This document shows, in pieces, positions 15,801 through 62,198 of a stretch of DNA of 64,000 bases. This DNA is from Norana najaformis. Its lineage: Eukaryota; Annelida; Clitellata; Crassiclitellata; Hormogastridae. The stretch covers positions 2,727,034-2,791,033 of the forward strand of contig OZ029922.1 of NCBI GenBank assembly GCA_964023275.1. The letters run 5' to 3'. The translations under genes and the position numbers were made by a program. The notes beneath the pieces were generated by a model. The model had not been told where the DNA came from. It saw only the letters and a list, made by a program, of their open reading frames with translations, and made no database searches. Position 1 is the first letter of the stretch, and the number at the start of each line of letters is the position of its first letter.

Positions 15801-18800
15801 CGCGCCCAAGGTGCAGCTGACCTGACAACACAAGACCAAGATTGAATAGAATGGTCTTCAGTTGCTGATGAAATAGTGACAAAGAAACGAGAACATTGCA
15901 TGGCAGCGCATTCCAGAATAATAATAATTTATAATCTCTGCATTTATTAAGGACCACTATCTAATGAATAAGCATCAATCGATGGTGCTGAGCAACTGTG
16001 AGTGAAGGACTTGCTCAAGGTCCCTACACAGTAACCGTGTCAGAGGAGGAGGCTTGAACCCATACTCTCTGTGTTACAAGCCAAGCACTCTAACAATTAG
16101 TTACCATGCCCCCACAAAATATAGTGTATAAAGCACTGATAAGAGCAAAGCTGCCTTATTGCTTTGTGAATGTACGAGATGTTTGCGAGTATAGTAGATT
16201 TGTAGCGGCTCATGGTCTAATCTTAAAGTTCTAGAATTAAGGGCTGACCATCATAATGGCGAATGTGTCATAATCGTAAACTAATGATTTCTACAGCTCC
16301 CAACAAAAGCTAAGTCACAGGAACCAGCTTATTTGCAGGTGCTCAGTCAACACAGACTCAATAGGTAAGAAGGGTATGGTGTCTAACCTGCTTCTGCTTT
16401 TGGTGAATCTTTCTTAGGTTCGGGAGTTTCCTTTGATTTTCATCCTCAGAAGCCGCACATCTTCATCATCGGCACAGAAGAGGGAAAGGTCCACGTCTGC
16501 TCCAAGTTCTACTCAAGTACGTTTGTAGATACTTACAATGCTCATCACATGGCCATTTATCGGATTGCCTGGAACCAGTACCATCCAGGTGTTTTCATCA
16601 CCTGCAGTGCTGACTGGACCATCAAGATCTGGGATCGAACAACTGACTCTAAGTACGTACTTGACACTTCTCAAGCAACGTTCCCTCTAAGGTTAGGATG
16701 TTGCTGAGCGCTGAGCAGATTGTACTGAACAAGCATTAAAATGACCTGAGCACAAAATTTTGATCAGGACTTTATTTTCAACTGTTATTTATTAAATCTT
16801 ATTTTTGTTTTGGTATAATATTAGGTATTTTATTACTGGAAGGAATGTCAAAATTAATTTAATAACTTTGATAAAATAGATGTATTTAGATAAAAACTTT
16901 ATTTAAAAACAATAAAATTTCAGCTATTTATAGCTATAGGTTCCAGAAATAGGTAATCATAAAAAATATAGATACCAGTTTTATTTTCTGCAATAAGTGT
17001 CTATAATTATATAATAATTTTAAAAGTAAACAATTGAAAAGTTTAAAAATTGTTTAGAAAATATAAGAATGCTTTTACAGAGCAGTTTTTTAAGTTATGA
17101 ATTTAAAATGCTGTAATTAGTTGTACAAAGTAAACACTTTTTTATTTCAAGTCCTCTCTTGGAGTCTCTCCTATTTTAAACAAGATCAAATAAACGTATC
17201 AACTGTTTTGAAAAATCTTATAATTTTTCTATTCTGATTTTGTTGTTTTTCCAATAATTGTACACCATCTCCACCTGAGCAACTGATCCGGAACAGAGGC
17301 TGACAGGACAGTCAGTGACCCATATATATAAAATGTGAAACAGATGCAAAAAGAGAGCTACAGGGGAAGTGTCAAGGGCTGGATTTATATACAAGCTCAA
17401 AGAGGGCTTAATTATGTCTTTAAACCCTCCTTGTCATGCTCTGCATTCCCGCATATAATTTTATTGGAGCTCGGATATCAAGGCATTCAACCATTACTAC
17501 CTGTTTGGAACTTGGTCTTCGTAGCATTAAGACATCTGTGTCCCAGCTGTTAAATATCAATTACAATTCTTAATTCTATGTTGCTATTCTATAAAGTTTG
17601 CTATATGAAATGATGAAATTTATTCTCCTTGCCAAGAATGAAATTATCTGCGTTGAGAACACTTTTAGTGCGCAGCATGATGAAAGCTGCTGCACGCGCG
17701 CACGCGCGCAGCTTACAGAGAACATTGCTTCTCATACTTTGTTCTAGGTACTTAATATAACACGTATAATTGCCATTTTTCACTCTTCAAGTACTTAATA
17801 CACAGTGTGTAATTATCATTTTTTATACTCTTAGTACTTAACATGAAGTTTGCAGTTGCATTTTTCATACTCTAAGTACTTAACACAAAGTGCATGATTG
17901 CCATTTTTTCTCTCTGGTCTTCAGGCAACTGGACTTGGTTCTTGATATGGCATCTTTGGACAACCCCACTGGCTTGACGCAGCACTCGTGAATAAGCTGG
18001 TGCCCTGTACTTAGCTTTTAAGTAGGGCTTTAGAAATTTTGAGTTTATGATTATGATTTTTGTTCCAAAAATACATAATTTCCAATTTTCAAACTCCAAC
18101 ATGTAAACAAATGTTAAACTTTTATCTTGTACTCAGAATGTGATGACGTGGTATGTAATTGTTTTCTGTCGGTTCTCAGTCTTTCTCTGCCTAAATGGGA
18201 ATGCAATAACCGAACAATTAATACTTCAAAAGTATGAACACACTTCAGATGACCTTACCTTATTGCTTGCCTTACCTTGTCTTCTATTTGAACCTAGTGA
18301 CGTATACCTTACCTTGAGAATTGGCAAATTAACAAGCTCTTGTGTTACCTCAACTGACCTGAGTGCTTGCTAATTAAAGTAATTAATTTTAGGGAGCCAA
18401 TGTTCACCTTTGACCTTGGCAGTTCAGTGGGTGACATTGCGTGGGCTCCTTATTCTTCAACGGTGTTTGCTGCAGTTACGGCTGATGGCAAGGTAAGAAT
18501 GATATAAAAGGGAAGAATGTTGTGCATAGCTATAACTCCTTAATGCATTATCCAATCTGTGCATTTAGTAATTTTGAAGACACTCAAAATCACTGCTTAA
18601 CTTCTGCATTTAAAAAAATTTATAACAGTTAAATCAGTAAAAACACGTTTGTTTATTTATATGTGGCTTACCTTTATCAATAGTTCTGCATTTTAAGAAT
18701 CCATTTAGAATCCGACAAATTTCTTTTTGCAGATTTTTCATTTGGTGCTGAGACTTTTAATTTTTAACACTTTGTTGCATTTTTCATGGTTAGGTTTATG

Positions 18801-25933: not shown

Positions 25934-26063
25934 ATGTTGATGTCGTTTTCAGTATTATTGCTCATACAACTGTCAGGAGCAGCTCCACCATGTAACGCCC
26001 CTGAAGTTTGGCATGATGATGGCACAGGGGGTCGATGTTGTCGATCAGTTAACTGCACACCTG
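25934..26063 (+). CDS. TNFR-CARD exon 1: signal peptide and first Cys
   Basis: Residues 1-44. Acceptor tttag precedes 18 nt of 5' UTR (exon starts 25916), so at least one non-coding exon lies upstream. Hydrophobic SVLLLIQLSG core, then CNAPEVW, GRCCRSVNCT. Donor gtaatt, phase 1. Confidence 0.82.
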
Positions 26064-29000
26064 GTAATTTGTCAATTTACTGTAATGTACTTAAGGTCAA
26101 TTAATTGCTTTATTAATACAATATTGTAATAATTACATTAATTTTTATTAAGTAAAACAGTTACTGTAATCATTATTATGATACTAAGGTATTTTAATGT
26201 AATGCTTAGTTTTTGTTGTTGCTTATCCCCTGGATTCGTTTTCTGAATTTACAGGGTATTTTGGTGTGGGGCACTATTGGTTTGAGCGTTTAGCTTGTAA
26301 TGCGGAGAGTATGGGTTCAAGCCTCCCTTGAAATGGTTACTGTGTAGGGACCTTGAGCAAGGCCTTCACTCACAGTTGCTCAGCACCATCTACTGATGTG
26401 TTGTCATTAGATAGTGGCACTTAATAAATGCAGAAAGAATAATAAAATAAGTGCAAAAAATTTATCTGAAGGCTAGTGATGTTGCAATAACAGGAAAGGC
26501 TGCATGTTCATTCATTCAGAACATCTGTCTATGTCCCTTCGAGATGTCAGCTCGGAGAAGTTTAACCACACTGAAGCATTCTCGTCGATATCTGACTGAG
26601 GACAGGTCAAGAGTTTTTTGATTGTGCTGCACTGAAGATGACTGTTAGACTACGCCCGTGTAATAATCTGCTGGTTAGCATGCTGAACCATGAGCTTAGA
26701 GGTCTGGCATTCAAATGTCTACCAATGCCCCCTAGTGAGTTCCACTGTAAATGAGCACATCAACTGTAAACTGTTGAGAATACCAGGTTCTGAGGAAAGG
26801 GACTGGCCACCCAAATGAATGCAATGAGGGTAAATAGTGAAGTCACTAATATGTCATACCTATCGCTTCCGCTTGGGATTGGTTTAAGGGAATGCAAATT
26901 ATCTTTTTATGGTAATAATAAACTATAATATTAATTAAGGTAACACGGTAATTTTTCTTATACTTACAGGAATGGAACCAAAGGTCTGTAGTGATTCCAG
27001 TCTTGAGGCAGTTTGCGTCCAGTGCCCTGCTGGAACTTTCAATGCTGAGTATCTTTCATCAGCCCGTGGTAATGGCAGCATGCCCAAGTGTAAGAGGCAC
27101 AGCACTTGTGACTCCAAATGTAAGTAAAAATTCAATTAACGTTATGATAAAGATTTTAAATGTTTTAGTCAGTCAGACTCTAGCGATTTTTGGCATGACA
27201 TTCGAGCCGTACAAATAGGAAGCCAATAACTTGATCAAAATAAGTTGGCCAAATGACCAATTGTAATCACAGAATTATATAGCACCTCTTCAAGCTCTCT
27301 TGAAGAGGTGCTATATAATCATCAGAAGTGCTGCTGTCCTGACAACACTAAACGACAAACAAAGATCAAGGAGCTCATATGGTAGGCTGCTGGGCAACTC
27401 ATTTAGGAAAGTTGGGCCAATGGCTGCAACTATACTTGGTTCGTGCTTCTATACTGCATTGTGGAAGTTTGGATCAGGTGGGACAACCAAGTCATCGCAC
27501 AGCAGAACGAAGGGATTTGCTGCCAGGAATGGTGAAACCAGGTCATATAACTCCCTGAGATAAGGTAAAACACAGCCTGCAAAACAATTACGCAAAAGCA
27601 TGAAGGTCTTTTGCTCATTGTGTTTTTTCATTCAGTGACCTGTGCAATTACTCGTGCCCTGAAACTGGGCAGATGCCCAAACCTAGGTATACATCTATTC
27701 AGTTGGGCTGCAGTTTTTAGCATGGATTACAGTTGATTACTTCAGGAAGGAGTTTGGCATGCATAAATAGCAATCAGCTCTGGTAACCTTGGCAGCTTGA
27801 GTTAAGCGAGCATCATCTTGTTCAAAAGTGACACAGTTGGTAGCAGACATTCAACATACTCTTCAGATGCTCTGAGAAGGTCAGTTCATGGTTCCAGGTC
27901 ACACATGCTACAAATTAGGCAGTTTGATGTTAGAGATCTGTCGACAGCTAACAAGCTAGATGAACTGGATTTCCTGGGATTCGGCCAGAGGTGATTGGAG
28001 GACATCAGTTATCGAGAGACTCACTTCATTAAGGACTAACTGGTCAGAACTCAATTTGTCTAAAGAATGAATGTCAGTTGATCAGATGACATGTTGGGCA
28101 AAGAAGAGAACTAGATACAGACAGTAAGAAATTTGTGATGTTGAATTCTCTTGCTGTTTTGGCTACTTGCTCATTCGACATCTAATTTTCTAGCATCATG
28201 TTGCTTAACACTGTGCTTGTGATTCTGGACCCGATGCTGCAGTATCTTCATTCTCTTCAACTGTAATTCAAATTTTGTTGACTACATTTATGAACCTTTA
28301 AACAGTTTGTGTGCTTGGCAGTTTGTATTTAGTAACTTTGTGAAATTTGGTTTCTTTTTTACACCTTCAGGCACATGAAATGCTTATAATCTTTAGAAGT
28401 TGTTTGAACTTTCTCTGTTTCTGTGCTGCCAGATCAATACGAAAAAAGTCATGGAAGTGCCACTCAAGATGTTGTATGTGGGTGCTTCAATGAAACATAT
28501 TGGCAGCTGGCACCTGATGGAAAGTGTCACAAAACTTGTCCACCAGGCGAACACTTGCCGACAGGCGAAGGTGTGTTTGAAAACATGAAGCACGAACTTT
28601 GATGACGCATTGGCTATTGTTAAATGCCTTTACCTCTGAACTCTTGCTTTGAATCTCAGTACATTATTTGTCGCTGAAAATTGTTGGATTGCTGTGTTTG
28701 CACTTTGGCTGAAATATTGCTTCTGCGTTTATTAAGCACCACTGTCAAACAACTAAGCATCCATCAGTGGCACTGAGCAATTGTGAGTGAAGGACTTGCT
28801 CAAGGTCCCTACGCAGTAACCATCTAAGGGGAGGCTCGAACCTGTACTCTCTGCGTTACAAGCCCAGTACTCTAACCAATCAACTTCTGTGCCCCAATTT
28901 AACTTCTAATCTTGCTTTTAATAGATGGAAGGCAGGAGCCTTAATAATGTTGACAGTGTATTTTTAATATTTTATTATTTCTGCATTTATTAAGCACCAT

Positions 29001-32000
29001 TATCTAATGATTAACATTGATTGATATTGCTGAGCCATTGTCAGCTCAAGGTCCCTCCACAGTAGCCACCACAGGTAAGGAGGCTTGAACCCATACTGTC
29101 TGTTATAAGCCAAGCTCTCTAACCAATTGGCTGCCATGCCCACGAAATATAACCCGTAAATAAATGTAACCATAAGAACCCATGATAAAAATCATGGATC
29201 CTTTTAACCTTTTATAGTCTGAGACTATTCTCTTCAGAACTAGAAAAAAGTTTGAATATTTGAGTGCCTTTTGGCTGTTTTCATAAAGTTTTTCTTGTCT
29301 GTGATTCTGTCATGGTTTTTAGCAGAAGATTTTCAGTTATCAAGCCGTTAGCAGCAATAGGCCTTAGAATGTGTGCAGTTTTGTAATCTGTGCAATAGAC
29401 TTATTTTTCAGTTTATTGAAGTAAGTAAACAGGTAGATAAGTAAGTACGAAACTGAACATTGCCATTGCACTTTTAAGATGCTCTTGACGGTGCTTCTTG
29501 CAAGTCTAGTCAAATCTACTTAATTGTCAATCATAAAAACAGCCAGAGGGTTTTGCTTTGTGTGACATGGTGGAGTGTTTGCCTTGTAGCTGGAGTGTTT
29601 GCCTTGTAGCCTGGCCTTTGCAGATCTGATTGTCACTGTATAACAATCCTAAGAGTCAGAAAGTTTATAGTGCACATTGGAAATTCTTGCTTAATATGGA
29701 TTTTGCACATACCATACATCATCTTGTTCTCTTTGTTTTAACATGTTCTGTTAGCCACTCGCATACTTGTAATACAGGAACAGTTTCTCCCTTTTGGATT
29801 CGACCATTTGACACCTTGACTGTGAAATCTTGAACGAAACTAGTTTGTACCAATAGGCAACAGTGATCAAAAGAGCTTGAGTTGAGTTGCTAGTATCACT
29901 CATGCCTTTTTAATTATTATTATTATTTTTGCATTTATTTAGCAGCACTGTTTAGCGACTAAGTACCAGTTGACGTTGTTGAACATTTTTGAGTGAGGCA
30001 CTCGCTCAAGGTGCCTGCAGTGCAGAGTGATCATGTCAAGGGAGGAGGCTTGAACCCGCACACTACGCATTACAAGGTGAACATAGTGCAGCTGACTGAT
30101 GCCTTGACTTGGTTGTGTTATATAGGTAATTGGTGTGTAAAACTACTGTTGATTATCTGAGTGAATGTTGCTGTTTTAGAATTATGTGTCCCATGTGTTA
30201 ATGGAACATTTAAGAATGTGAATGGAACACATGAGTGTTCACCATGCACCGTGTAAGTATATTTAATTTATTCTTATCTAATAAAATCTACTGACTTTTG
30301 CAGCGCCATTATCATGATGCACAAGGGATTATTTTATTAATTGACGGTTGCTTCAACTGTAGCAAAACTTCGTAATCCAGTGAAGAAGCTCAGTGAGGAA
30401 TCCAGAAGTTAGGTTAGGTTTTCCTTTTGTTCAGTTTCCTTTGTCAGAGTTTCTTAATTTTCTCATGATTGTTAAAGTTTCTCTAAAGACTTTGAAGTTT
30501 CCAAGAATTTTTTACCTGTGTGTTAGGCAAATCTTTCCCAGACCAGTTTGGGCAACTCATTGGTATGCCCCAGATGATAGGGAACATGGGCAGATTGTGA
30601 GTGCTACCAAGAGTCAGCTGCATTTTCCGTTTCTCTCAACCTCAATACAACCCTCCATAACAGCTCCTCGGGCCCCTTCTGTCTGAGGTCTTCTGGCAGC
30701 TGGAGTTTTTTTCTTCCCATGGCTTCTTTGGACAACCCCTCTGACTTGATGCAGCACTTGTGAATAAGCTTAATACATTATTCGTTGTTTTAATATTTAA
30801 TATTTAATGCCATGATATAACGACACCACATCCTAAAAGAATCATCATGCATAAATGATATGAAAAGTGGTCACGGACCTGTACATAAATCAGTGAAATA
30901 AATGAATGATTTATTGAATATTCTGTGTTGTTTCTTCCAGGTGTAACAAAACTGAAACTGAATGCAATGCAATGCAAGACGCTGCGTGTGGACTAGGTAT
31001 TTAATGATTAGTCCTGGGTCTTCTTCTTGGGGCACTGTATCAAATTGATTTAGAGTGCTTGGCTAGTAGCACCAAGTGTATCGGTTCGAGCCTTCCTGAG
31101 ATGGTTACTGTGTAGCACCTTGAGCACATCCTTCACCCTCAGTTGCTGTGCACCATCGATTGGTGCTTAGTCATGGCGCTTAATAGGTGCAGAAATAATA
31201 ATAGTAATAATTGTTTGTCCACAACTTCCGATGTGCCCTGCTTAATATCCTTTTTGGGTCATTTTTGGTGTCTTTCATCACATGTCTTTAGTATCTCCGT
31301 TACCTGAATTTCCTTACTTTTCCTTAGAGAACAGCAGTCTAGTGCATATGGTTGGTGTGCTTGTCTGGATAGCTTCTTGAGTGTTGCTCAGTTTGTCTGT
31401 GTAACTTTTACCACTTCCATTAATATCTGTTGTAATGCTGTGCAGTGTTTATCTCATTTCAATTTATGTCGTATAATTTAATGTAACAGGCTGTTTACAT
31501 CAGCAACTTTTTGTGACCTCTCAAAACTGCTTTCTTTTTTGTCTCTTTGCATGATGTTGTCCTGTTTTCTCTCTGGAACTGTTTCCATATGTTTGCTCTG
31601 TTCATATTGCAACTACACTAGCCCCTTTGTAAAATGCTTCATCTGAATGTGAATTTGTCGTAATGTTACGGATACATACCAACAGATCCAAATTTAGTTC
31701 AGCTATATAGTGCTCCCCTGTTATGACATGTCCTTGTTATGAAAGAGGACTTGGTGCAGCTCCTTGCTTGTTAAATTCACTAATGCTATAAATTATACGT
31801 TAAATACACTGATGCTATAAATTATACGTTAAATTCACTAGTGCCATAAATTATCTCCAGAATTAAAGTGATAATTTGAATAAATATCAGAGATATTCTG
31901 AATTTTATACGTTTTTAGAAAGCATGTCACCTGTGGAAAACCAGAATAATGCTGGCATGATAATCGGGCTTGTTGTTGGGTAAGTGCTGTTTTGTGCGCA

Positions 32001-35000
32001 TACAGTGGTCTTTAAAGTAAACTTTATTCAAATCAAAGCAGGAAGCTAATTTGAAAGGTTTCTTCTGTATTTATAGAGTTCCTTTCATTTGATTTCTTTT
32101 CGAAAACTTGTCTGATTTTACTGTTCTTTGCAATACTTGTCTGTCACCTGTTGAATATATATCTTTGAAGCCAATTTTAAAATATTTTTTATCAGTTGAA
32201 GATACTACTACCTTCTGATACAGTATATTGCTTTAAGTTACACATTTATTCATTTAGTCAACTTTAGTAGCACCTCTTCAGCATATAATACTCGGATGCA
32301 CTCCTTGATCAGATGTTAGAATCTTTTGGCTGAAGCTCAAACATGACAACAACAATCCAGCAACTATACAAAGTTTCCATTTTAGTATTCTTATGCAGAC
32401 TGGTATTGAAAATCATTGCTACTGTGAGTTTATGCTTTATGAGAAAGAGATTTAGCAAATGCAGTTACGTTCGCAAATTGTGGTGTCGTACAGTTGACCA
32501 GTAACAGGTTTATCAAGGGTTACTATGCCTTTGTGGATAACTAGAGGCAGTATGCTGTTCAACGTAAAATTAGACTTGATTTTCAGTTTTATGTTATCAA
32601 GACAAATACAGATAACTACTTTGCATTTCTATAGCGCAGTTGATGCCTTTAGTGGCCTATGACACATGATATTGTCAGTCATTGAAAGCTGTTGCTGAAA
32701 TGTTCATTTTTAAGCTGGTACTTGAAACTTCCAGTGCCCAGGTTCTGCATGGCTGGGCTGTTTAGGGACAGATGTTTTTGAAAAATAGAGTCAAGAGTTA
32801 AATGCATATTAGTTTTTGGCTGTGGCAAAATGTGGTTGTTTCTGTTGTTTTTCAGCTTCATAGTAGTCGGACTATTTGTGGGGTTACTTGTGTGTTGGCA
32901 GCAAGGATACATTAGTGAGTCAAAAGATTTTTCTTTAAATATTTTAGCCACATCAGTTTTCATTCAGTGATTTGCAGAGTATTTCAGTAGCAACCTTTGA
33001 GGAATCTACTTAGTAGTCCAGGCCCAGGCTGTGACAAAAGATATTGATAGAGGATCTCTAGACAGACCTAGACGAAAACTGTGCACATTACAAATTTCTG
33101 TAATATTAAATAGCAGTAGTGATAAATTGTAATATTAATAATAGCCCCTCTGCCAGAAAATCATGATATTGCATTTTATAACACATACAGTAAGGAGATG
33201 TCTATACAAGCAGCTTATTCTTTGCGTCAGAATGTCATTAGACTATGGATTTTGATTCGTATAAAAATTTTATTGTTTTAGATTGTGGAAGCTACAGTCC
33301 TCGTAGAAGTTCTGACAGACCTAGTGAGTGCTTTGATCTTTGCAAGCAGCCCTTAGTGAAGGAGATACCGTATAAACGCGACTATAAGTTGATTCAAGTA
33401 TAAGTCGAAGTGTACTTTTTTGAGAAAAAAGCGTCCAAAATCGACGGCTCGGATATAAGTCGAACCCATATATACAGCCTTATAATATGGGCCCATCCAT
33501 ATATTACGTATGCAAAGAAAATTATATTTTCATACCCCTCATATATTTAACAGAGGGAGCGTTCTTCGGCTAGCATGCAGAGACTGTGTGGGGAATATAA
33601 TTATAAAGGGCGACTATACGAATATGGGTATATATGTATCCACCTCATATTTACAAAACCATATGTACATAAGGTACATGTATATGGTTTTGTAACTGAA
33701 GGAACTGATTTAGCAGGTTGGCTTACACCCCTTAGTACTGCCTGACTGGTCAAAGATGACATCCAGATGGCGATGGCAGTGATACGAGTTGTCTGACCTG
33801 CATTCCATTAATTTTTCAGGGTTCTGTCAAATCTTGCTATAGTCGCTCCCTCTGGCGACCTTTCTGTATGACCGACTGCCTGTGACTCAATTACCTTGGT
33901 CGACCTGGTTCTCAGCACAGAATAACTGCACATGGCTTTTATATAGTGTAATAAATTCCATCGGACGACTATAGGATAATGCAGTGTTATAAATAGGCTA
34001 ATGTGGAAATTTATTTTGCGTACATACACATTTTGTCGAGACCCACCCCCTCGCCATACGCACCCATATGCAAAATCGCCTAAATCTGATCACCCTCTCC
34101 CCCCTCATTGCATATGTAATATGCAGCGACTTTCCCCTTTCAAATGGTTTATCAGCTAGGCTCGCAGCCTGACTCCCTCGTTTTGCACACATCTCTACAC
34201 CAATATTTTAGGTCTTTCTCTTGCTCGACATTACTGCGCGTATCCATGATATTTAATTTCTTTTGGCGGAGGTCTCGGTAAGCGATAATAAAGGACATCG
34301 CTTTCGATGCATGAAATATATGGTAGAAGTATATAATAACGTTGTTATAAGAGAAGAATATTTCGTTTTGATCTACATGTAGTCAGTAATTTGTTGAAAT
34401 GTGATTTTTCTTGAAAAACGATATAAAAACAAAGACAACTAAAATAAACTGAGGGTTTAATGTTTAAGTCCATTTTAGTACTGTTGAATATTCAGTCCGA
34501 AAATCTTCCGTCTATTTTGTCTCTCGAGTATAAGTCGAAGACCTTTTTCGTCGCCCTGAAGTAGACATAAATTTCTCGACTTATATTCGAGTTTATATGG
34601 TAATGCTTGACCATGTGCTGGTGCCATTGTTTTGAGAATTTTGCACAATCCATCAGCAATGCAAAAGATGTAGTAATTGCTAGAGTGTGAATGGTGATCA
34701 GCATATTGGTGATAACACTAGCTGGCATTACCAGGCTTGCTTCTCATACTAGCTTTTGCTTGACATACAAGTATAAATTGTGTTGGGATTTGATGCGAGT
34801 AATGATGGTCTGCCCCACAGAACTGCACTGTCTGATGAGTGCTTCGAGGTCTTGCAAGTCCTTTCATTTTGACTGTGGTTCAAAAGTGTTAACTTATGCC
34901 GGGCGGTAGAGTGTTCCTCTGAGCCACTGTAAAGGGGCACTACCAAATTTTAGTTGTTTTGTATGGTTTGTGTTTATGCAGTTGATGCTGCATGTCTTTT

Positions 35001-38000
35001 AATGGTTCTGCAAGTTAAGATACTGGTAGATTAAGAATGCCAACAGCATAAGTTTCAGGATAGAATGCGACAGATTGCAAGCCAACGTCTTGGCACAGTG
35101 ACTGGGTGATTGATTACATAAACCTTGCGAGTAGCTTCTTCATTGAGTTCAGAAGCACTTTTAGCAGCTTAGCATTCAGGTCTAAACTTAACATATGTCT
35201 GTTTCTACTTGCTTACCAACTGTAGCTTGACTTCTGGTTCCCCGAGTTCTTGAATTTTGACTAAGCTTCTCCAACAGATTGTGATGTTTGACTGGTTTTG
35301 CTTGATGTCTTGGGCATTATAATAACGGTGCTATGGAAGTCATGATTGAGGCTAGATTAGATTAGATTGAATTGGATTAGACAGGTCAATTGGCATTTCC
35401 TGATTCAATGAGCTGAAGGCATAGGAGGCAACAAGAAATGCAATTTTGTATCTTGTTTCATTGTTGTGCTAATGAATGCAGCCGTGAGAATCTTTGTGGA
35501 TGTCAGGTGGAGACAGGACATTCAGATAATCATAGCAACTAAGGTTCTAGATAAGATTAGTTATGACTTTACATTACATTATTGCTTTTGATATGGATTG
35601 TATTCATATATGGTATTGTATTGTATTGTATTTGATGACTTATATAGTGCTTCTTACATAACAAACTACTCAGAGGCACTTCCAGCATGAGAACCCCTGG
35701 GAAATAAAATTGTTTAAACAACGAGCTGACTGAACTCTATCACCAACAGAGCCCCTTGCACGAAATGAGAGCAGAAGTCCATTCCATAGAGATGGGCCAA
35801 CAACAGCAAAAGCCCTCTGCTGTGCAAGTGAGGACTTGATATGGTAATTTTTGTATTGTATAGTGTATGTATTGTATCTGGTATTTGTATATTTATGAAC
35901 TCCAGATTAGATGAGATTAGTTACGATATTTTAGTGTTGTATTTTAATTTATGTTTTCATTAGTTACGGCATCTGATCATCCAGAGAGTGAACTGAGTAA
36001 GCATTTCACTGTTATTCTGGATAGGTTTCTTAATGCTAAATACTACTTCTGTATTCTGTTTTGTTCATTCATTTATTCATTCATTCAGAGCATTTATGTA
36101 GCACCCTTTGAAGATGCCCACCCTTTGGTGCTTCGAGACAAGACTTAGCAAAGGATAAAAGTTTTCAAGTGTTGGTGAAAGGTGCTCTAGCTTTCCTGGT
36201 CAGGAGGACATATAGATCATCGCAATTATAAAGCGAATGTCGCTAAGCAACTGCATGTTTCTTGGTTTAGGTCCCTGCAAGTGGAACCATATTACATTAT
36301 CTAATCTAATGACTTCTATAGCGCCGTTATCATAATGCCAAAGGCATCAATCGATGATCACTTTGGGTGAAATCATAAAGTATTGGAGAAGCCAGGTCAA
36401 ATTCCTATGGATCGAAGTTGTTGAGCTGTACAGTGTGTAAGTTGTGTGATCATTGTATTATTTTGATGTTTGGACTTCACTGTTCTTAAGTCCTGAGCCA
36501 CACCTTGAAGGTCAAATATAGAAACAGGCTTACTTTACCTTACCTACCTTACCTTAGTATACCTTACCAGTCTGTTCTGTTCATGAAACTATCTTTTGCC
36601 TTTCTCTGTGTATTAACTTTCTGTACAAAAAGCACTTCAAGGCACATAAATTTATTCATATTTGTTTTTTTAAATCAATAAGGTACAGTAAATCTGTTCA
36701 TTGGTCAGGAATAGGCATACTATTTCATTTTCTAGATTTTTTGGTGGCATATTTATGATGACTTTTCTGCTTTCAATGAATTTGTTCATGTTTTGTGACT
36801 TCAGTGCCTCCAGATGACAATGTTAATGCAAGCAGTGGTCAAACTGCCAGCAGCAGACAACAAAGAAAACTTGATTGTTTTAAATGCTGTGGGCGTAACC
36901 TAAGTGGTAGTCGATCACACAATAAGGAAGAAATAGTGTCACTTACTGCACCTACCAATGGAGAATCTGTTAACGACAGGAGGCCAAGTGGTCCAGAAAA
37001 TGATACAACGCAGCCTACTGTTGGGAATGGTCATGCCACTGATGTTGTAACACAGCCTGATGGAAGCAACAGTCACCTTTCTGGTGAAAGAACTCAACCT
37101 GCCAGTAGTACATCTCTGGCTGGTGCCAACTTGGGTCAACCTGCCAGTAGTGCATCTCAGCCTGGTGCCAACTTGGGTCAACCTGCCAGTAGTGCATCTC
37201 AGCCTGGTGCCAACTTGGGTCAACCTGCCAGTAATACACCTCAACCTGGTGCCAACTTGGGTCAACCTGCCAGTAGTGCATCTCTGCCTGGTGCCAACTT
37301 GGGTCAACCTGCCAGTAGTGCTCATCAGCCTGGTGCCAACTTGGGTCAACCTGGTCCTTTGAGCAGTGGTGGCTTGGGCGTTAGTCAAGAAGGAGTAGAC
37401 CCAAGAAATGGTAAACTTTATGTAATTTTTCATGAATTCCTAAAGTAGGTTTTTTCAGATAGTGCATTTTTTATTTGTGTAACCTTTTTAGGCTGTTATT
37501 TTTTAATCCAGCGACTGCATTTTGTAAAAAATTGCAAATCTTCTCTGACCTGCCTGCATTCCGATCATGTTCTTCATGCTGTATTTGTGGACAACCCTTC
37601 TGACTTGACGCAGCACTTGTGAATAAGCTAGTGCCCTGTGTTTAGCTTTTAAGTAGCGCTTTATTGTGCTGAACTGTCAATCGTAAAGTCATGGGTTCAG
37701 ATCCCTGCCCAGGCTTACATTTTTTCAACATTTCGGCTCCACTTGTATCTCAGAGTGAACTCGACTATAATGAGCACACCAGCTGTACACTGTCATTTGA
37801 AGATGACAGGGTGAGCGATAAGGCTGGTCACTCACCTTCATGTGCTGAGGCTAAGAAAAAAGGAAGTTACTAGCAGTTCCCATGGCTGCCTATTGGGGGT
37901 AGCTCAGACAATTGCCCTACTTAGTATTATTACTACAAAATTTCTAATGCGCCCAGTCACACAGAAATGTGAATCTAATCTAATGACTTCTATGGCGCCG

Positions 38001-41000
38001 TTATCTTAATGTCCAAGGCATCAGTCGATGGTTGCTTCAAGTCAAACTCGTAATCCAGAATCACAATCCATTGGAGAAGCCCTGTTGAATTCCGAGGCCT
38101 GGTTAGCCAGCTGCCAGGTAGAAGTGGTGGAAGTGCAGTTAAATATCGAGACGTTTTGATTCTTGATGATTCATCTCTAAATCATAAGAATAGTTATAGT
38201 TGTAATATCTGTAGTTTCCAATGTGTTCTTTGTAGCTAAGCAGCAGGGTAGTAGTCTGTGTTCGTATATTCCACCCGTGGCAGTTCAGTCAACATCCCAA
38301 GGTGCTCATCGTTCATTGGTTTCAGAGGCACCGCATTCCGGAACACTTCAGGAACCTGATTTTGACTTACAGAGTGATGATCCATCTGTTGGTAATTTGT
38401 AAATTTTACCTCTTTTTTATGTGTGTGTACCAATTTTGAAGAATTATTCATAGGACTCGGTTGTTGTTGCTCAGATCTGCTGGCCTTGTTAAGACATTAT
38501 ATTTATTATGAACAGTTGCTCAGTAGGTCAGCTACTTCCTGTGTTAATTGCTCACTATGCTTGTTGCTCTCTAGGTCAGTTGCTCACTAAGTCAGTTGCT
38601 GACTCGGTCAGTTACTTCCTATGTCTGTTAGTGTCTAAATTAGACACTCACAATTAAATTGCTCACTAAATCACTTGCTTACTAAATCAGTATGAAATTT
38701 CTGAGGTATTTTAACACCAGGTAATTGTCAATGTTGAAGCAACACCTACCAATACTACACACGTGATATGCTTGAAACGAAAGTGGGGCTGTGAAATCCT
38801 GCTACAAAGTCTACTAACTTACTGCAATGGGTCATTTAATTAAATCTAAGTAAAAGTATCACAATTTTACTGAATGTCAAGAGAATGTCTTTCTGGTAGT
38901 GTACTTTTGAAAATTTTCACTGAGTTTGCTGAATGAAAATTGTTTCAAATTTATGTCTTTGAGTTAATAATTTTACCTGGATGAGCTTCACATTTGCATT
39001 TGACTTGACATAATGTGTGGAATTCATGGAAATGCACATATCAAGAGTAAGTTGTGCACAGTTCAACAGTGCAATTCTAATCTGATCTAATGACTTCTGT
39101 AGAGCTGTTATCATAATCCCCAATCGATGATTGCTTCAGGTGAAATCATAATAAAAATCGTGATCTAATGGAGAAGCTGTGTCAAAAAAAACCAGAAGTT
39201 AGGCTATGGTGGGTAAGCAAGTTGAAACAGATTCGTTTTGATTTCACTTGATGGGCCCCGGGATTCAGACTGTAGCCATTAAGGTGAAAAGTGAACATGT
39301 ACCTATATCTAGTTCTAGCGCATATTGCTTTGGTTCAAGCTACATGTGTTTGCATCCTTTGTAAGGTGCTATATAAATTGCCAGATCTTTGAATACATAT
39401 ATACACGTGTTATTTCTCTTTATGGTGAGCAGTTGACCTAGTGAGCAGTTTTTTTCTTTTATTTGGTTTTAAGTTAAACTTTGAGCAAAATCAAGAAAAT
39501 TAAGTGTCATCAGTAGAAAGATGCTCCTTTGGTTGGGCTCTACATGTGTGCAAGAGCCTGCCAGTGGTGACTTCTCCAGTTATCTGAGCATAATTTTCTT
39601 ACCAATGAACATTTCTGTTTTGCAGAAACTGTGCAACCACCTATGCCAGTGGGCACAGCACTTTTCAAAGGTACTTGAAAGGTGCTATATAAAGATACAG
39701 GCATGCATACATACAAACATACATGTATACAGACATTCATGCATACATTTATACATACATCTAATTACTGTTATTGTGATGATCACTTTTTGTGAAACCA
39801 TTTGTCAAATATCATTATCATATGTCGTAACAATGGGAATGTTCTGTTGCAATTTTCAGATGAAGGCATAGTCAAAAAGTACATTAGTAAGATCCAAAAA
39901 AATTACACCAAAATAATGAAGATGTTCAGTGTAAGCAATGGTTTGATTAACTACCTGTATCAAGAAAAGTTTCTGACGTTTGAGGAAATGACTGAACTGC
40001 AGGTAAGCGTATGTCGGTTTTTAATGAAATAACTTCACTGTTTAATTACAAGTGTTCAGAGCAGAACATTCTAAACAATGCACTGAATGCCAGTGCTTGT
40101 CAAACCCTAATGCTGTATCAGGGGGCCAGTCGGAAAATTCAGAAATTAATGGTGCTCAGGTTTTGCTACTCTGTGTTATTTTGACTGTATGGCCCTTCAT
40201 GCTTATATTTTTTAATGTATGGCCCTTGATGCATATCATATTTCTTTTTCCACCATAATTGGCCGAACTTATCTCATCACTTCTGCATAACATAATTTAA
40301 AGTCAGCTGGTGCTGGTGTTTCAAATTTGCAGAGTGTACAGCACTGCCTTTTCCAAGCATAAAGCTTGTCACCCTTAATGCTTGGCAGCTCTTCTGTGGC
40401 ATCTGTGATGTTCAGTGTGGATTTAGGTTAATGTGGTTTCTTGTTAAAATGATCCTTAAAAATTGATGAGTTTTCAACTTATTAGTCTTAGTCAGACCAT
40501 TATTAGTAGCTATTAAGCAGATTAAGGTATATTATTTTGTGATATATGGATAAGAACTAAACAAGTTGATAATGTAAAGGACAGTTTAGTTAAGTCCTCT
40601 GCCAAACTGTATGCATGGATCCCAAGCTCACTATTCCATATTTGCCGTTAGTGGTCCACAAGCATCAGCGTAAAGTTATTGCCGGTCCCTGGCTTAAGGA
40701 AGTTTTAGAACCAGTTATCTAATATGTGATTTATATTGCACAGATTTATAACCGCATTGTCTACAACTATGTTTACTCCTCAGACTAATCAAATCCAGGC
40801 CTTAATCTGGTTGTAGCACAAGTGGAAATTGTTGTGGGCTAGTCGGCCTTTGCACCAAGTTTTTCGGAATGTGCTTCTTTACTCTCTTCTGAGTTCTGTT
40901 GTCCTACTGATCCTGACCTGCCTGTTCTTTTCATCTTTTGGATGTCTTTCTGTCTCACTGACCTGGAATTCCTTCAATTTTCCTGTTATGTGTGCTAGCG

Positions 41001-43800
41001 CATCATCAAGAATTGAAGCCTAATGCATTATCTGAGCCTAGCTATGGCAATTATCAGATTGGAATAGGTTATGTGAGCAGTGAATGAGGAAACTTTTATC
41101 CACTTTTTTAAATGTTTCTGTTTGCAGGAACTAAAGAAAAAGGCGAACGGTGACGCAGAAGCCTTTCGTAAGATCCAAGAAAGACTGCAACAACGTGGTG
41201 ACAAAGCAGCCAAAATTTTCCTGGAAGCCTTGGTACATCCAGAAACCAGACTAGACGCACTCGCCGAGTTTATAGATCAGGAACGAGCAGAGGAGCTAAT
41301 TAAAAAACGAGGTTAGCTTTGTTTATGATTCACAACCACTGTGTTTAGGCCAAGCTTTTTCACGTTCAATTGTAATCATTGTAACTTTTTATATAGCGCC
41401 TTTTTGAGAGAAACACCTAAGATGTAACAACACAAAACCACAATCAAACAGAATGGTTTTCAAGCGCTTGTTGAAAAGTGGCAAAGAAAGACAACGGAGC
41501 TCATGTCGTAGGTTGATAGGCAATAATCTATTCCAAAAAGATGAACCAACCAAAGTGAAGTTCATACATACATACGTTCTTTATACTGCGCTGTGAAATT
41601 TCAGGTCAGAGGGACAACCATGTCACCTTGTACAGCAGAGCAAAGGGATCTTCTGCCAGGAATGGTTGAGACCAAGATGCAAAAAGCAGCTTTGCCAAAG
41701 AAGGCAGAAGAGCTGGACAAGATGAACCAGAAATATGGCCTGAGCAAACCAGACATCAAAAAGTAGTTGTCAGCGCTAGAGAAGTAGTTGCAGGACTTGT
41801 AATCGTTGCTGGCTGTAAATACGTTCCACTCTGAAGTTAAAAAGAATTGCAGTTTCTTCCACATGAACTGGATATATGTCTAAACCTGGGTATACTGCTG
41901 ATCAGCTGAGTCTCAGCATTTAAAACAGATTGTAGCTGATTAATGAGGGCAAGGGTTATGCCTACATAAATGGCAGTGTCTTAATCAACCCTGGTGTATA
42001 TGAATGTTTGCAACGGGGTCATGACGGCTTGAGTTGTAAGCAAGCAGTGTGCTGTCGAATCTGATGCAAGTGGGGAAAAGCAGATTTTATATACACTATT
42101 CACATGCTTTAAGACAATCAGTTAATGTTCCGGTCACATCCAGATTACAAAAAGTAGTGTTGCATTAAGGTTGTGAGGGTCTGTAATTGAATTTTGCAAA
42201 ACAGAATACCCGAAAAAATTCTGGATTTTGACTTTAAAATTAGATTATTATTAATTTTGATTAGCGTGTTCATATGTAAATAATTACTATAAATGTCTTT
42301 TTTTGGATGTGGCCATGTCTGGATTGACACCAATTCTGATTTCTTCTTTTGGATTCGACTGCTTGGTTTACTGATTCTGTTCATGATCTGAGAAATTTTA
42401 AAAAAATATTTTGGTACAAATTTGAATTGTAGGAGACAGTGCCAAATGAAATTGTTTGGGCTGCATGTATCTGGTTAAAGTGAGTAGAATGTCCTGCTAG
42501 CTAGTAACCTTAGAATACACGTCTTAATTTTCTTTGTTGTGTTATGATTTGCAGGTGATCCTGATGCCAATTCTGTTTCTGGTAAAGAAGTTTCCTGATC
42601 TCGTTATAGTTAATTAACAGCATTATGTTTGTATGAATGTATGTATGTATATATGTATCTAGACAAAGCAACTCATAGAAGCTGAGGCTGTGCTGTCTAA
42701 GCGGTGTTAAAACTCTACCATGGTCGTATTTGGGTGGTGCCAGTCAGAAGCCTGGATAAAGGAGGAGGACGATGCTAATCGTTTTTGTTATAACACAGCA
42801 TCTTTAAACAGAAACTGCATACACACACAAATGACGTTAACGTTGTTAAGAAGAAAAGTTGATCATTAAGCCAACAATGCTTAGATAACTAGAAAAATCA
42901 CAATCATAATACATACTCTGCTTGAAATTACTTGCCTTTATTATCTTAATCAATAGCATATATATTTAAATGGGACTAATTTGGACATTTGCCTGTATTA
43001 GATGTTCAGTTATATTACCTGTATTCTTATGGATTGTTCTAGACTGGTTCTGTCCAAAGGATTGTGGTTCAGAATTGCGCTTTTGCTTAGAAGTGACCGA
43101 CTGTTGATTGATGCCTCAGCGTGCATTTTGTTAAGGCACAATAGAAGTTTCCAGATTAGAATAGACTGGACTGTCTTACTTTACTTTATCATCCCTGTCA
43201 TTTAGTATATAACTACCCAGTAGATCTCTTACTGGTTACATTCAAGTAAATGTTATTTTGGGGTTATGTTTGTTTTAATTTAATTTGTTTGCATGTTTGA
43301 TCGCCTTTTTCTTACATTAACGTTTTTGTTTTGTTTGGCGTATGCAGTTTGAGTTACAGTGTTTGCTTGTTCTAGACTTTTTAGATGGCAGAGAGCTTCC
43401 TAGTAATGGGGATGTTGTAGACAGCCCTAAACGTGAAACTGGCCCAGATAAGACACACGTAAAAATTCCTTCCAACACTGCAATTGACCCAGGCAAAACT
43501 CAAGTGAAAATTCCTTCCAACACTGCGAACGACCCAGATGAGACACTTGTGAAAATTCCTTCCAACACTGCGAACGACCCAGATGAGACACTTGTGAAAA
43601 TTCCTTCCAACACTGCGAACGACCCAGATGAGACACTTGTGAAAATTCCTTCCAACACTGCAAACGACCCAGATGAGACACCAGTGAAAGAAGTTGATGC
43701 CCCTGTTGTTCCGCGCACACCGCAGACTATTCAGACGAAGAAGGCAGATGACACTGGGGAGCTCTGGGCTGATCATCCATGGCCTGCATCTACATGTTGA
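25934..43800 (+). CDS. TNF-receptor-like membrane protein with intracellular CARD (15 coding exons)
   Basis: Predicted type I receptor of 760 residues; exons listed below sum to 2283 nt with no frame break. Layout: signal peptide about 1-17 (MLMSFSVLLLIQLSGAA); Cys-rich TNFR-type repeats about 20-180 with six N-glycosylation sequons; transmembrane helix about 194-217 ending CWQQ; Ser/Pro/Gln-rich tail with six 14-residue repeats; CARD about 502-610; tail with five 15-residue repeats and stop. Known of the families: TNFR ectodomains bind TNF-type ligands, and CARDs pair with other CARDs (caspases, RIPK2/BCL10-type adaptors). Inference: ligand-driven clustering would recruit a CARD partner directly. 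TLQE (38343-38354) fits the TRAF2 consensus. Start chosen because ATG 25934 has A at -3 and heads the signal peptide; the 5' UTR exon boundary is just upstream (25916). Ligand and orthology are unknown. Confidence 0.8.
26267..26447 (+). mobile_element. tRNA-derived SINE copy (full length)
   Basis: Sense copy: head ggggcactattggtttgagc, loop gcttgtaatg, B box gggttcaagcc, core gggaccttgagcaaggcc, tail cttaataaatgcagaaagaa. In TNFR-CARD intron 1. Confidence 0.8.
26665..26850 (+). mobile_element. Second-family SINE copy
   Basis: gttagcatgctgaaccatga, B-box-like gcattcaaatgtc, then gagcacatcaactgtaaact; matches 37668-37910 in order. Confidence 0.45.
26970..27119 (+). CDS. TNFR-CARD exon 2: Cys-rich repeat
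   Basis: Residues 44-94. CVQCPAGTF is the C-x2-C-x-x-G-x-[FY] signature that opens TNFR repeats; GNGS is a glycosylation sequon. Acceptor ttacag, donor gtaagt, phase 1-1. Confidence 0.85.
27274..27319. repeat. Perfect 21-bp inverted repeat
   Basis: attatatagcacctcttcaa-g and its exact reverse complement are separated by only ctct. It joins two copies of the LINE-tail sequence cttgaagaggtgctatata head to head; the right copy continues as the next feature. Confidence 0.9.
27299..27605 (-). mobile_element. LINE 3' end fragment
   Basis: Shares ggagctcatatggtaggctg, the gtgggacaaccaagtcat block and ctgccaggaatggtgaaacc with 41369-41690. Minus frame carries FYLISGSY-type debris only. Confidence 0.5.
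28433..28570 (+). CDS. TNFR-CARD exon 3: Cys-rich repeat
   Basis: Residues 94-140, CGCFNETYW ... CHKTCPPGEHL, another CPPGE-type repeat. Acceptor ctgccag, donor gtgtgt, phase 1-1. Confidence 0.83.
28719..28895 (-). mobile_element. tRNA-derived SINE copy
   Basis: Full order tail-core-head in reverse. On the minus strand the tRNA-like head has loop CTTGTAA (anticodon TGT) and B box GGTTCGAGCC. Confidence 0.8.
28971..29142 (-). mobile_element. tRNA-derived SINE copy
   Basis: Tail ttctgcatttattaagcacc, shortened core, head aaccaattggctgccatgcc. It lies 75 bp from the previous copy in the same orientation. Confidence 0.75.
29913..30103 (-). mobile_element. tRNA-derived SINE copy (diverged)
   Basis: ATT tail, tttgcatttatttagcagca, core gcactcgctcaaggtgcctg, head ggcttgaacccgcacactac. 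Third copy in the same intron. Confidence 0.7.
30180..30252 (+). CDS. TNFR-CARD exon 4: Cys-rich repeat
   Basis: Residues 140-164, LCVPCVNGTFKNVNGTHECS then PC, the most typical TNFR repeat of the protein. Acceptor ttttag, donor gtaagt, phase 1-2. Confidence 0.87.
30290..30400 (-). repeat. Family C retroelement tail
   Basis: gcagcgccattatcatgatg, then ttgacggttgcttcaactgt; truncated copy after TNFR-CARD exon 4. Confidence 0.5.
30600..30790 (+). repeat. Family D retroelement tail
   Basis: ttctgtctgaggtcttctgg, ctgacttgatgcagcacttg and gaataagctt; directly upstream of exon 5. Confidence 0.55.
30941..30996 (+). CDS. TNFR-CARD exon 5
   Basis: Residues 164-183, VCNKTETECNAMQDAACGL, closing the last Cys-rich repeat; NKT sequon. 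Acceptor ttccag, donor gtattt, phase 2-1. Confidence 0.85.
31029..31210 (+). mobile_element. tRNA-derived SINE copy
   Basis: Sense copy from ggggcactgtatcaaattga through gttcgagccttcctgagatg and cgcttaataggtgcagaaat to an AAT tail, right after exon 5. Confidence 0.78.
31769..31852 (+). repeat. About 29-bp tandem repeat, three copies
   Basis: Unit gttaaattcactaatgctat followed by aaattatac, in TNFR-CARD intron 5 just before exon 6. Confidence 0.8.
31919..31979 (+). CDS. TNFR-CARD exon 6: stalk and start of membrane helix
   Basis: Residues 183-203, polar stalk MSPVENQNN then AGMIIGLVVG. Acceptor tttttag, donor gtaagt, phase 1-2. Confidence 0.83.
32856..32914 (+). CDS. TNFR-CARD exon 7: membrane helix
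   Basis: Residues 203-222, FIVVGLFVGLLVCWQQGYI; it completes a helix of about 24 residues with the previous exon. Acceptor tttcag, donor gtgagt, phase 2-1. Confidence 0.85.
33282..33323 (+). CDS. TNFR-CARD exon 8
   Basis: Residues 223-236, membrane-proximal CGSYSPRRSSDRP, basic as expected inside the membrane. Acceptor ttttag, donor gtgagt, phase 1-1. Confidence 0.75.
33366..34602. mobile_element. DNA transposon-like element with TA ends
   Basis: The left end taccgtataaacgcgactat and the right end, read in reverse, TACCATATAAACTCGAATAT form terminal inverted repeats, and both sides repeat ataagtcga motifs further in (33390-33465 and 34530-34590). The TA at each end suits a Tc1/mariner or pogo-type target. 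No transposase frame is left, so it is a 1.24-kb non-autonomous copy in TNFR-CARD intron 8. Confidence 0.65.
35235..35390 (+). repeat. Family C retroelement tail (reverse orientation)
   Basis: cttctggttccccgagttct, taataacggtgctatggaag, then a gattagattagatt tail. A LINE-like tail with tattgtattgta repeats follows at 35600-35850. Confidence 0.55.
35964..35996 (+). CDS. TNFR-CARD exon 9
   Basis: 33-nt exon, residues 237-247 (TASDHPESEL), acceptor cattag, donor gtaagc, phase 1-1. Short, so supported mainly by splice sites and phase. Confidence 0.6.
   Translation, partial: LRHLIIQRVN
36085..36410 (-). repeat. LINE-like tail and family C copy
   Basis: 36090-36195 (gcatttatgtagcacccttt ... gttttcaagtgttggtgaaa) matches 61655-61770. 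36301-36410 is a family C copy (tctatagcgccgttatcata). Confidence 0.5.
36805..37410 (+). CDS. TNFR-CARD exon 10: 14-residue repeats
   Basis: Residues 248-449. A Cys cluster (CFKCCGRN) is followed by a polar disordered region and six tandem copies of the unit QPASSASQPGANLG at 37095-37346 (42 bp each). Acceptor ttcag, donor gtaaac, phase 1-1. If not spliced the frame would stop at 37446-37448. Confidence 0.85.
37095..37346 (+). repeat. Coding 42-bp tandem repeat, six copies
   Basis: Six in-frame units caacctgccagtagtgcatc...; two adjacent copies are identical and others differ at a few bases, so the array is recent and still exchanging sequence. Confidence 0.95.
37555..37910 (+). mobile_element. 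Family D tail followed by second-family SINE
   Basis: 37590-37665 is a D tail (gacttgacgcagcacttgtg). 37668-37910 starts tgctgaactgtcaatcgtaa with B-box-like gggttcagatccc and the tgagcacaccagctgtacac block. Confidence 0.5.
37974..38110 (-). repeat. Family C retroelement tail
   Basis: tctatggcgccgttatctta, aaggcatcagtcgatggttg, aatccattggagaagccctg. Confidence 0.6.
38236..38391 (+). CDS. TNFR-CARD exon 11: possible TRAF motif
   Basis: Residues 450-501. GTLQEPDFD contains TLQE, which fits the TRAF2-type consensus [PSAT]-x-[QE]-E. Acceptor ttgtag, donor gtaatt, phase 1-1. Confidence 0.75.
38515..38700 (+). repeat. Degenerate about 18-bp tandem repeat
   Basis: Variants of gctcactaagtcagttgct about ten times in TNFR-CARD intron 11. 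Confidence 0.65.
39078..39240 (-). repeat. Family C retroelement tail
   Basis: tctgatctaatgacttctgt, gttatcataatccccaatcg, aatggagaagctgtgtcaaa. Confidence 0.55.
39860..40002 (+). CDS. TNFR-CARD exon 12: CARD, first half
   Basis: Residues 502-549. Helical, with KYISKIQKNYTKIMKMF and LINYLYQEKFLTFEEMTELQ, matching CARD helices 1-3 (I-x-x-N...; LxxYLxxExxLTxEE). Acceptor tttcag, donor gtaagc, phase 1-0. Confidence 0.82.
41128..41311 (+). CDS. TNFR-CARD exon 13: CARD, second half
   Basis: Residues 550-610. RKIQERLQQRGDKAAKIFLE then ALVHPETRLDALAEFI is the diagnostic CARD ending (LLxxLxxRGxxAFxxFLxAL ... LAxxL). A basic KKRG end follows. Acceptor tttgcag, donor gttagc, phase 0-1. Confidence 0.85.
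41369..41690 (-). mobile_element. LINE 3' end fragment in TNFR-CARD intron 13
   Basis: Tail atatagcgcctttttgagag at the low side. Minus frame holds VSTIPGRRSLCSAVQGD and an FxxRLKTILFD-like end, matching 27299-27605 and 15761-15915. Confidence 0.55.
42555..42581 (+). CDS. TNFR-CARD exon 14 (27-nt micro-exon)
   Basis: Encodes DPDANSVS across its borders; acceptor ttgcag, donor gtaaag, phase 1-1. DPD echoes the DPDET repeats of the next exon. Symmetric, hence skippable. Confidence 0.6.
43376..43800 (+). CDS. TNFR-CARD exon 15: 15-residue repeats and stop
   Basis: Residues about 620-760 and TGA 43798-43800. Acceptor ttctag, phase 1 in. Five tandem units VKIPSNTANDPDETL (43459-43683), then a Pro/Thr tail ending PWPASTC. 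The antisense strand is also open across the repeats, which is only a consequence of the 45-bp periodicity. Confidence 0.82.
43459..43683 (+). repeat. Coding 45-bp tandem repeat, five copies
   Basis: Unit gtgaaaattccttccaacac followed by tgcgaacgacccagatgaga and cactt. The central copies are identical over at least one whole unit, pointing to very recent duplication. Confidence 0.95.

Positions 43801-54291: not shown

Positions 54292-62198
<7,907 letters not shown>

Follow-up and report, generated by a model that had tools for sequence, protein, structure and literature searches.

Is a TNF receptor with a built-in CARD encoded by a single gene in the annelid Norana najaformis? Vertebrate TNF receptors are linked to caspases or NF-kB by TRAF adaptors or by adaptors with a death domain, and CARDs are located on cytosolic sensors, adaptors and caspases. 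The first-pass annotation of a 64,000-nt window (C10:2727034-2791033, within an assembly of 608 Mb in 17 contigs that we searched as a whole) had proposed a receptor in which a TNFR ectodomain, a membrane helix and an intracellular CARD share one frame. The joined reading frame and the Pfam matches support this architecture. We consider it very probable that one gene, as predicted from the DNA of one genome, encodes all three parts.

The gene model comprises 16 exons on the forward strand (25934-43800), one more than the 15 counted earlier, which join in frame to encode 775 residues with GT and AG at 15 of 15 introns (Table 1). The start codon lies at 25934 and the final base of the stop codon at 43800. 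Directly upstream of exon 1, the acceptor-like TTTTAG suggests a possible 5' UTR exon farther left. Splice sites were scored with a leave-one-out weight matrix derived from the gene's own sites, by which donors ranked 1-11 locally except that of intron 14 (27/111), and acceptors 1-14 except that of intron 8 (32/192). Both the donor and the acceptor of intron 13, which splits the CARD, rank first locally. Past the donors of exons 1-15, the open frame extends only 1 to 149 nt before a stop.

Table 1. Exons of the predicted TNFR-CARD gene and the neighbouring genes, in window positions.
Feature	Position	Strand	Content
Exon 1	25934-26063	+	Start codon, signal peptide by eye, start of ectodomain; hydrophobic MLMSFSVLLLIQLSGA
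Exon 2	26970-27119	+	TNFR cysteine-rich repeat; TNFR_c6 match together with exon 3, residues 62-109
Exon 3	28433-28570	+	TNFR cysteine-rich repeat; Pfam TNFR_c6
Exon 4	30180-30252	+	Cysteine-rich repeat; within phmmer TNFRSF9 match
Exon 5	30941-30996	+	End of cysteine-rich region
Exon 6	31919-31979	+	First part of membrane helix (hydropathy)
Exon 7	32856-32914	+	Remainder of membrane helix and juxtamembrane region (hydropathy)
Exon 8	33282-33323	+	Cytoplasmic linker
Exon 9	35964-35996	+	Cytoplasmic linker; weak acceptor, rank 32/192
Exon 10	36805-37410	+	Linker; about six in-frame 42-nt (14-residue) tandem repeats
Exon 11	38236-38391	+	Linker
Exon 12	39626-39670	+	Short linker exon; frame kept if skipped
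Exon 13	39860-40002	+	N-terminal half of CARD; CARD profile positions 3-38
Exon 14	41128-41311	+	C-terminal half of CARD; CARD profile positions 43-73
Exon 15	42555-42581	+	Start of C-terminal tail; weak donor before this exon, rank 27/111
Exon 16	43376-43800	+	Tail; about five in-frame 45-nt (15-residue) tandem repeats; stop codon
DNAI1-like gene	13011-21012	+	Exons 13011-13250, 13966-14253 and 20815-21012 ascribed by eye
MEF2 gene	57986-62198	-	ORF 57986-58441 holds RPNLRVVIP; that ORF has no Pfam match

Codon usage was trained on exons 2-4, 13 and 14 together with six trimmed ORFs ascribed to the two neighbouring genes (704 codons); these six ORFs may contain some intron. By this measure, exons 6-12 (log-odds -15.6 vs an intron mean of -96.4, sd 23.6, maximum -35.9 over 2,000 stretches), exons 10-12 (-6.4 vs a mean of -78.7, sd 21.0, maximum -21.6) and exons 15-16 (19.3 vs a mean of -43.7, maximum 15.0) look coding as blocks. 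Taken singly, exons 1, 4, 6, 7, 8, 12 and 15 were indistinguishable from intron in the same test. In both tandem-repeat blocks the unit length is divisible by three (exon 10, 42 nt; exon 16, 45 nt).

The gene is flanked on the left by an axonemal dynein intermediate chain on the forward strand (exon 16387-16707, E 4.3e-31) and on the right by MEF2 on the reverse strand (MADS exon 61959-62198, E 4.4e-41); the motif RPNLRVVIP is presumably a stretch of MEF2 C-terminal regions. Besides the receptor, a partial scan recognised no further gene between these two. A dispersed repeat of about 90-180 bases occurs in both orientations across the window (at 15929, 26276, 28714, 29920, 52208, 54604, 59363, 62374 and 63908). 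It corresponds to the families D3, D5, D7 and D9 and several inverted pairs, carries a GGTTCGAACC-like box and looks tRNA- or SINE-derived.

The predicted protein begins with a hydrophobic N-terminus and an ectodomain of TNFR-type cysteine-rich repeats. A single membrane helix at around residues 193-217 leads to the cytoplasmic part, which consists of a linker about 307 residues long, the CARD (about residues 525-627) and an acidic tail of 148 residues. The signal peptide, the TNFR-type cysteine-rich repeats and the single membrane helix reported earlier are all present, the first judged by eye and the others by Pfam and hydropathy. A single hydropathy segment exceeds 1.6 (about residues 191-222), with its peak of 3.05 in the 19-residue stretch that starts at residue 197, and the putative signal peptide falls below the 19-residue threshold used for the membrane segment. 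Together, the putative signal peptide and the one membrane helix give the predicted protein a type I topology. The ectodomain contains 20 cysteines and six N-glycosylation sequons. Pfam TNFR_c6 scores 30.3 bits on the ectodomain alone (residues 1-226, two stretches), above the cut-off of 29.4, and the best solved-structure match of the ectodomain in phmmer is TNFRSF9 (residues 40-167, E 0.0021). By its predicted extracellular cysteine-rich repeats, the protein is a predicted member of the TNFR superfamily. A further cysteine cluster, CFKCC, lies in the linker at residues 272-276.

The CARD in the cytoplasmic part, as claimed in the first-pass annotation, was borne out by the family profile. 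Pfam CARD matched a 115-residue region with 29.2 bits (E 9.8e-7, cut-off 23.9, profile positions 4-73 of 85), whereas neither of two shuffled versions of the region nor its reversed copy gave a CARD match in Pfam. The region is predicted to be a CARD. In these controls, noise matches to other families went up to 16.9 bits; the reversed copy also gave a weak Death_MADD match (12.7 bits, cut-off 27). When the joined protein was searched as a whole, CARD stood with 24.2 bits over its cut-off, TNFR_c6 fell with 25.0 bits under its own cut-off of 29.4, and Death gave no match at E up to 10; matches to NACHT or LRR were likewise absent in Pfam. Exons 13 and 14 contain both CARD peptides quoted earlier, in frame. 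Exon 13 alone scores 13.4 bits at CARD positions 3-38, a score exceeded by another family (16.1). For exon 14 alone, CARD is the best match, with 14.1 bits at positions 43-73. The two halves are weak singly, but they are co-linear and complementary over the junction. Two details had to be revised: the CARD does not lie at residues 500-612, and the protein does not end in it, as the 148-residue tail with its 15-residue tandem repeat follows.

A profile made with ten CARDs from eight other loci of the same genome likewise supports the CARD, giving the real sequence 25.3 bits and none of 2,000 shuffles more than 10.4. On the other side, the sequence is only 14-26% identical to six further CARDs of this genome and differs by an insertion of about four residues. 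In a phmmer search of the single sequence against solved structures, the CARD of RAIDD (3crd) was matched at residues 28-85 of the 115-residue query with E 0.45, as the sole CARD among five matches. An unrelated LRR protein (E 0.28) outranked it, and the single-sequence similarity to solved CARDs is therefore not significant. A profile of this CARD and six genome CARDs, which consists mostly of those six, retrieved RAIDD, Apaf-1, NOD1, CARD9, caspase-9 and CED-3. Because TAL effector repeats and a designed protein came up as well, weak matches in this search mean little.

With the whole protein as a query, the 608 Mb genome gave no sign of a second copy: nine of 45 matches were its own exons. 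The other 36 were rejected as low-complexity matches to the repeat regions of linker and tail (query positions 311-448 and 658-754). Five TNFR_c6 exon matches occur at three other places in the genome, as found in profile searches that did not list the window's own TNFR or its own split CARD and can miss divergent or intron-split copies. Downstream of these three places, the local CARD profile found no convincing CARD (best E 0.075) in 20 kb each (six 10-kb loci) together with L018, L020 and L021, comprising 1,416 ORFs. Scans of viral contigs with the CARD (17 pattern matches) and of prokaryotic contigs with the whole protein (14 pattern matches) yielded no relatives, which says little for a eukaryote gene.

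Possible partners of such a receptor exist elsewhere in the genome, where exon matches were found to TNF homologues (14), Death (36) and caspases (55). Of 507 candidate CARD exons, 150 were scored; all 150 exceeded the cut-off, mostly on C2 and C8 as judged by eye, and the split CARD of the window was not among them. At C1:39325536-39326567 (L004), a CARD exon (51.4 bits) is followed about 0.6 kb on by a Death exon (29.0 bits). This locus looks like a putative CRADD-type adaptor and could serve as an adaptor for the receptor. None of the 55 caspase matches lies within 100 kb of any of the 150 listed CARDs by eye, and hence a CARD caspase was not found by a search that misses intron-split CARDs.

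The CARD exons form arrays on C2 at about 5-16 Mb and on C8 (L003, L068, L069), often paired 1-2 kb apart, a pattern suggesting that tandem-CARD genes have expanded specifically in this lineage. Downstream of one pair, at L069, lies a long coiled-coil-like ORF that has no Pfam match. Caspase-like genes form a tandem cluster at C3:48643636-48753013 (L054 to L057 and L059), and at C9:23876750-23889948 a caspase-like match lies about 12 kb from a TNF-homologue exon. Several similar death domains, which we take to be of the ankyrin type, occur at L038, L040, L041 and L042, and seven let-7-like hairpins are dispersed over C3 (two), C5, C7, C8, C15 and C16, two of them over the Rfam cut-off. The scattered let-7 hairpins and the similar ankyrin-like death domains may reflect an old large-scale duplication in the lineage. 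Annelid erythrocruorin linkers gave 29 exon matches, with an array of many linker-like exons at C5:34.4-36.9 Mb. The best linker exon matched linker L1 of PDB 2gtl, presumably from Lumbricus, with E 1.4e-54, above linker L1 of 4u8u, presumably from Glossoscolex (5.2e-46). The let-7 hairpins fit a bilaterian, and the linkers a clitellate annelid probably related to earthworms; molluscan haemocyanin gave no match here or in any control genome, which is no proof of its absence.

How does the predicted receptor compare with known systems? The vertebrate death receptors TNFR1, Fas and p75NTR are type I receptors with cysteine-rich repeats and an intracellular death domain. The annelid protein shares this layout, with a death-fold domain on the intracellular tail, but carries a CARD instead. 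With no intracellular death domain found by Pfam over the whole protein, it falls outside the death-receptor subgroup, and its predicted architecture is a TNFR-superfamily layout in which the death-fold module has been exchanged. The ectodomain resembles that of TNFRSF9 (4-1BB), which, unlike the annelid protein, signals through TRAFs and has no CARD. RAIDD, also called CRADD, is a cytosolic CARD and Death adaptor that lacks receptor parts, and the match to its CARD is not significant, as described above. MAVS likewise has a CARD, a membrane helix and a long low-complexity linker between them; however, its parts stand in the opposite order, it sits in the mitochondrial outer membrane and it has no ectodomain.

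The nearest described system is the TNFR-caspase receptors of amphioxus. According to passages of the source paper (PMC2575513), cDNA confirms these hybrids, which are proposed to shorten the path between a signal and cell death. Like the annelid protein, they are predicted transmembrane proteins in which a TNFR ectodomain is joined directly to a cell-death module. The amphioxus module is the caspase itself, whereas the annelid module is a CARD, which recruits other proteins but has no enzyme activity, and the amphioxus hybrids are backed by cDNA, whereas the annelid receptor is predicted from DNA alone. In a paper on sponge NLRs, the legend of the figure on NLR categories includes both TNFR and CARD in its list of domains, and one predicted protein with both may therefore already exist (PMC12909245). 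The sponge proteins are NACHT-LRR proteins, whereas the annelid protein has neither a NACHT nor an LRR match. In oyster, according to passages of the respective surveys, TNFRs occur with and without a death domain (PMC4346834), and IAPs have been surveyed (PMC8917759). The relevant passages of two papers on annelid immunity (PMC8460440, PMC9756803) contain no TNFR-CARD. Among the matches listed from the open-licence PMC literature, no title or abstract opening described a TNFR-CARD receptor, and phrases pairing TNFR with CARD were absent from open-licence PMC papers.

As a whole, we somewhat favour the reading that the locus encodes a type I protein of the TNFR superfamily in which a CARD replaces the usual death domain and would seed the recruitment of CARD proteins. 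We give about even chances to the part of this reading in which the CARD is a recruitment platform driven by ligand. TNF ligands form trimers and cluster their receptors, and CARDs signal via helical assembly with other CARDs. A TNF-family trimer would thus gather the receptors, and clustering would draw together the CARDs held on their long flexible tether. The clustered CARDs could then act as a seed for cytosolic CARD proteins, which might be a CRADD-like CARD and Death adaptor, a CARD-bearing caspase or other CARD proteins, and the outcome would be caspase activation or NF-kB-type signalling. The inference in the first-pass annotation that a TNF-type ligand is coupled straight to CARD-CARD assembly with no adaptor reaches further than the sequence data, and the genome contains L004 as a candidate adaptor.

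Two adjacent genes could have been misread as one, with a TNFR gene reaching to about exon 11 and a CARD gene starting from exon 12 or 13. The join of the two parts is read from genomic DNA; an in-frame ATG in exon 12 could start a CARD protein, and intron 11 contains AATAAA/ATTAAA poly(A)-like motifs. Such motifs are present in 7 of the 15 introns, however, and are therefore uninformative, and the length of intron 11 (1,234 nt) lies within the range of the other introns (189-2,640 nt). Moreover, introns 10, 11 and 12 are all of phase 1, and the reading frame is therefore kept whether or not exon 12 is included. As the frame of exon 11 runs only 8 nt past the donor to a stop, a TNFR terminating there would end almost at the donor. 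We regard two genes as quite improbable and retain the single gene.

Given a single gene, the CARD could have other roles than that of a platform. Held at the membrane, it might sequester cytosolic CARD proteins and so serve as a sponge or brake instead of starting signalling. CARD-only regulators such as ICEBERG, itself present among the solved CARD structures, provide a precedent, and the genome is rich in CARDs open to regulation. The ligand-binding type of ectodomain on the same chain nevertheless suggests a signalling receptor, and we deem a brake unlikely. Alternatively, the receptor might signal mainly via TRAFs bound to the linker, the CARD being accessory. The loose TRAF-binding pattern [PSAT]x[QE]E is matched twice, at residue 486 in the linker and at residue 556 inside the CARD, but in a tail of 559 residues chance alone can readily produce matches to four letters, and the stricter patterns PxQxxD, PxExx(aromatic/acidic) and PxQx(S/T) have zero matches. 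We regard this route as rather improbable. The recruiting CARD remains our preferred reading.

A wider proposal, which we consider somewhat less likely than not, is that at least some annelids possess a separate class of TNFRs in which ligand binding would seed CARD assemblies at the plasma membrane and recruit CARD caspases or adaptors directly, without a death-domain adaptor. If true, this class would be the surface-receptor counterpart of CARD signalling by NLRs and of the MAVS type. A receptor with its own CARD would represent another animal wiring of surface cytokine signals to CARD platforms, beside the TNFR-caspase fusions of amphioxus. By such wiring, a surface signal might reach the machinery of cell death and inflammation more directly than in vertebrates.
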